Of a DNA stretch of 64,000 nt, positions 38,026 to 41,991 are shown piece by piece (positions within the stretch are counted from its first letter, which is position 1; every line of letters starts with the position of its first letter). Source of the DNA: an uncultured Reyranella sp. (GTDB lineage Bacteria; Pseudomonadota; Alphaproteobacteria; Reyranellales; Reyranellaceae). A program made the translations under genes and the position numbers. The notes beneath the pieces were generated by a model, which saw only the letters and a list, made by a program, of their open reading frames with translations, was not told the DNA's origin and searched no databases. The stretch spans positions 310,001 to 374,000 of the forward strand of contig NZ_CAMFKM010000002.1 of NCBI RefSeq assembly GCF_945957355.1, given 5' to 3'.

Positions 38026-39627
38026 CTACTTCATCGTGATCGGCGAGAAGTCCTGGAACCAGTTCTGGGCCTGGATGAAGCCCGTGACCTTGGGTGACAG
38101 GGCGCGTGGCGCCACGTCATGCGTCACGAACAGGAACAGCGCGTCGTCGACGATCTTCTCGTGGACCTTCTTCAGCGCCTCGTCCTGCGCCTTCTGGTCG
38201 AAGGTCGTGCGCGCCTTCTCCAGCAGGGCGTCCATGCCCGGGTCCTGGTAGAAGCCCCAGTTGGTGCCGTTGGGCGCCACCAGCTTCGAATCGAGATGGC
38301 GGATGAAGGCGGTGAACGGGTCCTGGATGAAGTAACTGAAGTTCAGCGCGCTGGCGCCCTTGGCCTGATCCGACTTGGCGCCGGCCCGCCACAGGTTGAT
38401 CAGCGTGTTCCACTCGGCGACCTCGAATTCGATCTTGATGCCGACGTCCGCCAGGTTCTGCTGGATGTACTCGTTCATCGGCAGCGGCAGCATCTGGCCC
38501 GAGCCGGAGCTCGAGATCAGCACCTTCGCCGTCACCGGCTTGGCCTTGCTGAAGCCCGCCTCGGCCAGCAGCTTCTTCGCCGCCTCCGGATCGTACTTCA
38601 CGTCGAAGCTCGGATTGCCGAACCACTGGCTGCCCGGCGTGAGGAAGCCCTTGGCCGGGATCATCATGCCCTTCAGCAGCACCTTCAGCCCCTCGCGGTC
38701 GACGGCGAGGTTGGCCGCCTTGCGGACGCGGATGTCCTTCCACGGCGAGCCGTCGGCGAAGGAGAGGTGCCAGGTCCAGTTGTGAGGATAGGCGTTGCTG
38801 ATCAGCTTGAAGCCGGCCTTCTCCAGGCTGGGGATCGCGTCGGGCGAGGGCGCCTCGATCCAGTCGACCTGACCCGAACGCAGCGCCGCCGTGCGGGTCG
38901 CGGGCTCAGGGATCGGCAGCAGCACCATCTTGTCGAGCTTCGGTACGCGCGCCTTGTCCCAATAGTCCTTGTTCGGCGACAGCTCGGCGCGGGTCTGCGG
39001 CTGGAAGGCCGTCAGCTTCCACGGGCCGGTGCCCGACGGCGTCTGCGCGAACTTGTTCCAGTCCTTGCCGACCTTCTCCCACTGGGCCGGGCTCGACATC
39101 ATCACCCAGGAGATCTGGTAGGGCAGGAAGGCGTCGGGCGTCTTGGTCGTGATCTCGACCGTCCGGTCGTCGATCACCTTGTAGGAGGCGACGGCGGGAA
39201 TGCGCGAGCGGCCCTGCGCCGCCTGCTTGGGGTCGAACTGCGGCGCCTTCTCGTTCAGCAGCTTCTCGAGGTTCCAGACCACGGCGTCGGCCTTGAAGTC
39301 GCTGCCGTCGTGGAACTTCACGCCGTCGCGCAGGGTGAAGGTCCAGCGGGTCGGATCGGCCTCGTCGACCTTCCACGAGGTGGCGAGGCCCGGCACCAGC
39401 ACCGAGGCCTTGTCGGCCGAGGACAGGTCCCAATTGATCAGCCCGTCATAGAGCGTGTAGCCCATGAACCGCATGCCTTCGCCGCCCTGATCGGTCTGGC
39501 CGGTGGTCAGCGGAATGTCGGAGGCGGTCATGCCGATGCGCAGCGTGCCCTGCGCCAGAACCGGGGTCGCGGCCAGCGAGGCCAGCAGCGCGACGGTTCC
39601 CAGAACGGCTTTCTTGGCGAGAATCAT
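38026..39627 (-). CDS. Extracytoplasmic solute-binding protein, family 5, second copy without permeases
   Basis: This 533-residue periplasmic protein has a signal peptide (MILAKKAVLGTVALLASLAA, cut after LAQ). TFTLRDGVKFHDGSDFKADA is the family-5 signature, and the GMDALLEKARTTFD and ALFLFVTHDV segments near the end also match. It stands alone: no partner ATPase or permease is near, and the cassette B genes are of a different class. It is divergent from katG. The ligand may be a peptide or opine-like compound. Confidence 0.9.
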   Translation of the reverse strand: MILAKKAVLGTVALLASLAATPVLAQGTLRIGMTASDIPLTTGQTDQGGEGMRFMGYTLYDGLINWDLSSADKASVLVPGLATSWKVDEADPTRWTFTLRDGVKFHDGSDFKADAVVWNLEKLLNEKAPQFDPKQAAQGRSRIPAVASYKVIDDRTVEITTKTPDAFLPYQISWVMMSSPAQWEKVGKDWNKFAQTPSGTGPWKLTAFQPQTRAELSPNKDYWDKARVPKLDKMVLLPIPEPATRTAALRSGQVDWIEAPSPDAIPSLEKAGFKLISNAYPHNWTWHLSFADGSPWKDIRVRKAANLAVDREGLKVLLKGMMIPAKGFLTPGSQWFGNPSFDVKYDPEAAKKLLAEAGFSKAKPVTAKVLISSSGSGQMLPLPMNEYIQQNLADVGIKIEFEVAEWNTLINLWRAGAKSDQAKGASALNFSYFIQDPFTAFIRHLDSKLVAPNGTNWGFYQDPGMDALLEKARTTFDQKAQDEALKKVHEKIVDDALFLFVTHDVAPRALSPKVTGFIQAQNWFQDFSPITMK

Positions 39628-39753
39628 GACGAAGGTCCCTGTCTTCCTTGTGGTCGTTGCCGCCGCAGACGCGAGAACCATGCCAAAGGATAGGTGGCGC
39701 CCCCGTCCCACCCGTTCGAAACTCAAGTCCGTTCGACAAAGAACGTGACTTCT

Positions 39754-39774
39754 AATTTAGAATCGTTCTAAATT
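39754..39774. promoter_or_regulatory. Irr/Fur-type operator (ICE-box-like) upstream of katG
   Basis: A perfect palindrome, AATTTAGAA-TCG-TTCTAAATT, ends 33 bases before the katG ATG. The core TTTAGAA-N3-TTCTAAA agrees with what I recall of the iron-control-element consensus of the alphaproteobacterial Irr regulator, and is A+T rich against G+C-rich surroundings. The position suggests repression or activation of katG in response to haem or iron, or peroxide if a PerR-like protein binds. Confidence 0.7.
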
Positions 39775-39777
39775 TAG

Positions 39778-41991
<2,214 letters not shown>

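Follow-up and report, generated by a model that had tools for sequence, protein, structure and literature searches.

What controls katG, the catalase-peroxidase gene of an uncultured Reyranella sp., and what recognises the palindrome that lies directly ahead of it? The gene was examined in a stretch of 64,000 nucleotides (64 kb; hereafter the window). The first-pass annotation had taken the palindrome for an iron control element (ICE) bound by Irr, with katG answering to haem or iron status and not only to OxyR. The motif was followed through the window, the whole genome, the genus and the class Alphaproteobacteria.

The palindrome and the katG locus

The following features were used in the analysis.

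38026-39627, minus strand: divergent ABC-transporter substrate-binding protein (SBP) gene, from SBP family matches that were all below cut-offs
39730-39745, no strand: second palindrome, CGTTC-GACAAA-GAACG, then TGAC; from the sequence, and shared by 11 of the 50 upstream regions of katG in the genus
39754-39774, no strand: perfect 9-3-9 palindrome, AATTTAGAA-TCG-TTCTAAATT; from the sequence, mismatch searches and the genus katG comparison
39756-39772, inside the 9-3-9 palindrome: core ICE/Irr box, TTTAGAA-TCG-TTCTAAA; exact motif match
39808-41991, plus strand: katG, catalase-peroxidase HPI of 727 aa, the presumed controlled gene; TIGR00198 and NF011635 above cut-offs

The sequence AATTTAGAATCGTTCTAAATT consists of 9-bp arms about a 3-bp spacer. 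Its perfect symmetry, and the 33 bases between its last base and the katG ATG, were confirmed as first described, as was the naming of the gene, the product of which scored 1201.3 bits against TIGR00198 (cut-off 770.25). The core matched the ICE/Irr box consensus, which we take to be the interrupted palindrome TTTAGAA-N3-TTCTAAA. Allowing up to three mismatches, the 21-mer was found at a single place in the window (shuffle mean 0.00, 100 shuffles), and the core TTTAGAANNNTTCTAAA at one place compared with 0.09 expected.

The second palindrome, just upstream of the Irr box, was seen in the katG upstream regions nearest to that of the window (L120-L129 and L171); it may hold a -35 region or the site of a second regulator. 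A consensus sigma-70 promoter was not found in 39600-39900, which was counted against the Irr reading. The likely ATG of the divergent SBP gene was 126 bp from the Irr-type palindrome, so control shared with katG is possible. An overlapping TTCTAA-T-TTAGAA (39750-39762) might have supplied a third half-site; the idea was abandoned, since the left half of this sequence varied among the nearest relatives.

The box, irr and katG in the genome and the genus

Exact copies of TTTAGAANNNTTCTAAA were located at two places in the 5.79-Mb genome, and the reversed pattern at none. With up to two mismatches there were 3 places versus 3 for the reversed control, and with up to three mismatches 8 versus 20; there being no excess once mismatches were allowed, which was counted against the Irr reading, the sequence by itself lends credence to the two exact sites and to no others. 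The six weak copies (one with two mismatches, five with three) were rejected, showing no excess over the reversed control and in some cases lying inside ORFs. The weak copy TTTCGAAAGTTTCGAAA, approximately 100 bp before an ORF resembling alcohol dehydrogenase by eye, was set aside, as its arms differ. The second exact copy, on contig C26, preceded a rubrerythrin gene by 81 bp, counted to its ATG, and came immediately after irr, which is read in the same direction as rubrerythrin and is divergent from fabA. Both exact boxes precede genes for peroxide-removing enzymes, not haem or iron-uptake genes. The expectation that further copies would precede haem and iron genes was therefore borne out in part: one additional exact copy exists, before rubrerythrin and behind irr, and none stands before a haem or iron-uptake gene of this genome.

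Four Fur-family genes were detected in the genome, irr among them. The Irr protein (135 aa, L002:1544-1951) was scored with the two NCBIfam Irr models and exceeded the cut-offs of both NF045678 (198.7 bits, cut-off 150) and NF045677 (183.6 bits, cut-off 170), while PerR models fell far below their own cut-offs on it. The other three Fur-family proteins matched Fur or Zur models best, below cut-offs, and were far below the Irr cut-offs. The lack of any Irr or Fur-family regulator in the genome would have refuted the proposal; irr was found with two curated models, and the proposal was not refuted on this count. No match to the mbfA model was obtained in this genome. The search for oxyR, also called for at the outset, yielded a true OxyR gene (44% to E. 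coli), which is divergent from ahpC/ahpF rather than beside katG and lies about 180 kb away on the same contig. At L222:799-2367 and L223:1465-2379 (same genome) OxyR carried the motif GHCLRDQAL...C and was divergent from ahpC and ahpF; L223 also encodes another LysR protein resembling OxyR (40% to that of E. coli).

Among 61 genus genomes irr was detected in 56 (E <= 1e-25), including 41 of the 41 good-quality ones. The neighbourhood count was made from 59 loci representing 56 distinct genomes. In all 56 a box at up to two mismatches followed irr (24 exact, 25 with one mismatch, 7 with two), and in 54 rubrerythrin came directly after the irr-box on the same strand; in the other two (G067 and G009) there was no rubrerythrin behind the irr-box before the contig ended.

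The katG gene was present in 53 of the 61 genomes, the named katG nearest to that of the window being the one from Reyranella sp. D4_Bin_3 (L018) at 87% identity. Fifty katG upstream regions were anchored on the protein; fragments lacking a 5' end did not enter the count, nor did the broken katG of G032. Within 200 bp upstream the box was found exactly in 6, at up to one mismatch in 32, up to two in 41 and up to three in 43, compared with shuffle expectations of 0.00 at up to two and 0.20 at up to three mismatches. Three second katG copies without an anchor (L169, L173 and L174) were placed by coordinates and had no box, for a total of 43 of 53 katG genes. The ten genes without it were counted against the Irr reading. 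The box is missing from every scored katG of G007, G071, G022, G062 and G013; the remaining genes without it are second copies, from G079, G020, G012 and G032. A second katG group, present in some genus genomes, 71-75% identical to KatG of the window and without an Irr box, was represented by L168, L169, L173 and L174. No OxyR-like match was found near box-less katG genes, with 1.5 kb upstream covered in L138, L142, L143 and L144 and shorter stretches in L153, L164 and L168.

In an alignment of 25 katG regions, picked from the box-bearing ones, the box stood out as the principal conserved segment, the DNA around it having diverged. The genus consensus around it was CTTG-box-CTA, with CTATAT in part of the alignment, and the flanking hexamers were spaced 15 bases apart by eye, which is short; flanks of this kind suggest that the box would lie over the core promoter. 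The flanks in the window were CTAA-box-TTTA, unlike this consensus.

Targets also changed between genomes. G016 had no katG match, and in it an exact box preceded a monofunctional catalase gene, approximately 64 bp from the probable start of that gene. G024 carried boxes at katG (one mismatch), irr-rubrerythrin (one mismatch) and ahpC-ahpD (exact). All genus targets found so far are peroxide scavengers.

Distribution in other bacteria

In a named collection of 80 katG loci from many phyla the box was present at up to two mismatches in four: two from Reyranella (L018 and L026, also counted in the genus set) and two from Alphaproteobacteria bins (L033, exact; L022, one mismatch). The remaining 76, mostly from other taxa, had no box at this threshold and were counted against the Irr reading. 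Ahead of the Mesorhizobium katG genes (L019 and L030), at 101-102 bp from where the match begins, stood a palindrome of another sequence, TCTGGAATCATTCCAGA, with variants in L020 and L021. It resembles TCTGGAATCATTCTAAA, found in the Reyranella katG upstream regions L127-L129, and may be a diverged Irr box or the site of another regulator.

The exact box was found in 43 of 289 alphaproteobacterial genomes, compared with 28 for the reversed control; among those of at least 3.0 Mb the figures were 26 and 3 (counted by hand from the survey table). Targets were tallied at 43 loci outside the genus, leaving out G000 and G016. Recognised genes adjoined 35 of these: rubrerythrin (16), Dps-like ferritin (9; 'Dps-like' is a reading of the Pfam ferritin-domain match), AhpC (5), Rrf2 (3), di-haem cytochrome c peroxidase (1) and SufB (1). 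Most recognised targets were peroxide scavengers. The other eight loci had no recognised target; among them, L236 had a weak Irr-like match at a distance of 333 bp from its box, and the box of L240 preceded a molybdopterin oxidoreductase gene.

Several single loci were recorded during the survey. In L243 a glutathione peroxidase gene and a Dps-like ferritin gene diverge from an intervening exact Irr-type box (at 1501), and in L239 (1501-1549), from a 1.4-Mb genome, two exact boxes 32 bases apart lie between an Irr-like gene and rubrerythrin. In three genomes (L119, L265 and L266) boxes were 66-87 bp before Rrf2-family genes, an arrangement by which Irr may control an Rrf2 regulator; control of rirA by Irr has been reported in Brucella (PMC10374146).

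Irr was detected in 38 of the 43 box-bearing genomes compared with 144 of the 246 box-less ones (Fisher p = 7e-5, uncorrected for relatedness). The five box genomes without Irr at E <= 1e-25, all of 1.0-1.8 Mb, were counted against the Irr reading; two of them had plausible targets (G225, rubrerythrin; G138, SufB).

The mbfA gene was used as a positive control. Of 13 matches, the 6 over the family cut-off were taken and the 7 weaker ones left out. The motif, with 1-3 mismatches, was found 20-78 bp before the match start in four of the six, in each case as the sole such site in the locus of about 4 kb. At the other two there was no motif, which was counted against the Irr reading.

The regulator, its signal and the Irr regulon

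The irr linkage, the conservation at genus katG genes and the motif at four of six mbfA genes together support the identification of an ICE/Irr-type motif well, and on these sequence comparisons the first-pass annotation was very probably right to name Irr. We conclude, with a probability of roughly 0.85, that the palindrome is an Irr operator through which Irr represses katG, with derepression of katG and rubrerythrin on haem-iron sufficiency or on peroxide. The motif, its rarity and conservation, the Irr gene, the co-targets and the match to mbfA upstream regions were computed; that Irr binds, that it represses and does not activate, and which signal it follows are parts that we infer. Irr, encoded elsewhere in the genome beside rubrerythrin and fabA, would bind the katG box and so block katG transcription. 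Its inactivation or loss, under haem-iron sufficiency or peroxide, would then derepress katG and rubrerythrin. Under such a scheme no haem catalase would be made while haem and iron are short, and both katG and rubrerythrin would be on when they are plentiful or when peroxide is present.

An accidental AT-rich palindrome, or a hairpin, terminator or RNA element, would be in keeping with the AT-rich composition of the site, and nothing else was found in favour of such an origin. It can be disregarded for practical purposes: the shuffles gave a mean of 0.00, conservation of the box in 43 of the 50 katG upstream regions contradicts chance, no terminator-like site was present in 39600-39900, and Rfam returned one sub-threshold match to a miRNA family (16.2 versus 51 bits). 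A less remote alternative is that the box serves another Fur-family regulator, one of the Fur-like proteins encoded on C1 or C5, and that its linkage to irr is incidental. Boxes for Fur, PerR and Irr are similar AT-rich palindromes, this genome has four Fur-family genes, and the five box genomes without detected Irr fit such a regulator, as does the ChIP finding of Fur at katG in Magnetospirillum gryphiswaldense (PMC3251581). Against it stand the physical linkage of box and irr in all 56 genus genomes, the box upstream of four of six mbfA genes, the enrichment of Irr among box-bearing genomes and the attribution of the TTCTAA half-site to Irr in rhizobia (PMC7540006), and we consider it improbable.

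A variant that agrees with the Irr operator concerns the signal. Irr may act mainly as a direct, PerR-like peroxide sensor, with iron or haem status secondary; the proposal is that H2O2 oxidises Fe2+ at a His/Asp site and the repressor is released. The N-terminal Cys-Pro haem regulatory motif is of the B. japonicum type and is missing in several other Irr proteins, and CxxC structural zinc pairs are usual in PerR. The 135-aa Irr has zero cysteines, hence no Cys-Pro haem motif, and no CxxC pairs; Leptospira PerRs have likewise been described without the CxxC zinc site (PMC8638967). Aligned with Bacillus PerR 2fe3, it showed His/Asp where the metal is bound; the ligand position that tells the families apart (alignments to 2fe3, 8j6w and 2w57) was occupied by Asp, not Glu, Asp being the residue described for PerR/Irr as opposed to the Glu of Fur/Zur/Mur (PMC8638967). 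These metal ligands, the missing Cys-Pro motif, the peroxide-scavenging targets in the genus and among most recognised targets in the class, and the reported degradation of B. japonicum Irr on exposure to H2O2 (PMC4902296) speak for peroxide sensing. The Asp, however, is also common to haem-responsive Irr proteins (PMC8638967) and therefore does not discriminate, and the HHH cluster, a haem-binding element of B. japonicum Irr (PMC4700492), is present here as HHHH, in the sequence GHHHHF. To judge from the residues, HHHH without Cys-Pro together with the PerR/Irr Asp would be compatible with haem and peroxide signals alike, and we place a mainly PerR-like mode of sensing a little short of an even chance.

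The Irr regulon, with its ICE, of rhizobia and Rhodobacter includes mbfA, ccpA, bfr and other genes. The Reyranella arrangement is like it in an operator with the TTCTAA half-site, an Irr-family protein, an operator near the start codon and the same motif at four of six mbfA genes of the class sample; it differs in that its own genome has its two sites at katG and rubrerythrin and no mbfA match. In S. meliloti mutation of the ICE half-site TTCTAA derepressed mbfA (PMC7540006). For R. sphaeroides, PMC3413700 describes two genes with predicted Irr boxes and tests of Irr on mbfA and ccpA; the catalase gene katE was up in the irr mutant yet, in that account, unbound by Irr, which was counted against the Irr reading. 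The same source describes Irr of the studied species as repressing under iron depletion and Bradyrhizobium Irr as undergoing haem-mediated degradation at high iron. M. gryphiswaldense, also an alphaproteobacterium, offers a parallel in that its katG answers to an iron regulator of the Fur family, as is predicted here. There Fur was on the promoter under high iron (PMC3251581), while in Reyranella the operator and its linkage favour Irr.

The PerR regulon of Bacillus and relatives includes genes for catalase, AhpC and Dps-type proteins, and the arms of the PerR box are TTATAAT. The present system resembles PerR in having a Fur-family protein, predicted to be a repressor, with His/Asp metal ligands and with catalase, AhpC and Dps-type genes as its probable targets; unlike PerR, its Irr has no CxxC zinc site, passes the Irr models and is far below the PerR cut-offs, and the operator arms are TTTAGAA. 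Irrs and PerRs are stated to regulate many common effectors, catalases and peroxidases (PMC8638967), so a link between Irr and defence against peroxide is in itself nothing new. No report of an Irr box at katG was found in the literature searched, including PMC3420878 and PMC5459824; Rodionov 2006 may list such targets.

The katG box gives the Irr regulon a new member, conserved across much of the genus, and does not amount to a new kind of system; it is very probably a real but fairly ordinary regulatory switch, the same site standing before other peroxide-removing genes in relatives. It adds a catalase target to the regulon in a lineage for which no work on Irr was found in the literature searched, and it suggests a way in which a bacterium bearing OxyR could, by means of Irr, couple its haem catalase to iron/haem or to peroxide. 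The broader pattern is the more promising lead: an Irr regulon in which most members would be peroxide scavengers. One speculative extension, which we would sooner doubt than accept, is that outside rhizobia Irr is the PerR of Alphaproteobacteria: it would sense peroxide itself and govern a core, perhaps ancestral, peroxide-defence regulon (rubrerythrin beside irr, AhpC-AhpD, Dps, cytochrome c peroxidase and, in Reyranella, katG or the strain's catalase), and the rhizobial haem/iron regulon would be a later extension. The class pattern of irr-box-rubrerythrin, AhpC, Dps-like ferritin and catalase offers a compact set of promoters bearing on whether Irr began as a peroxide regulator.
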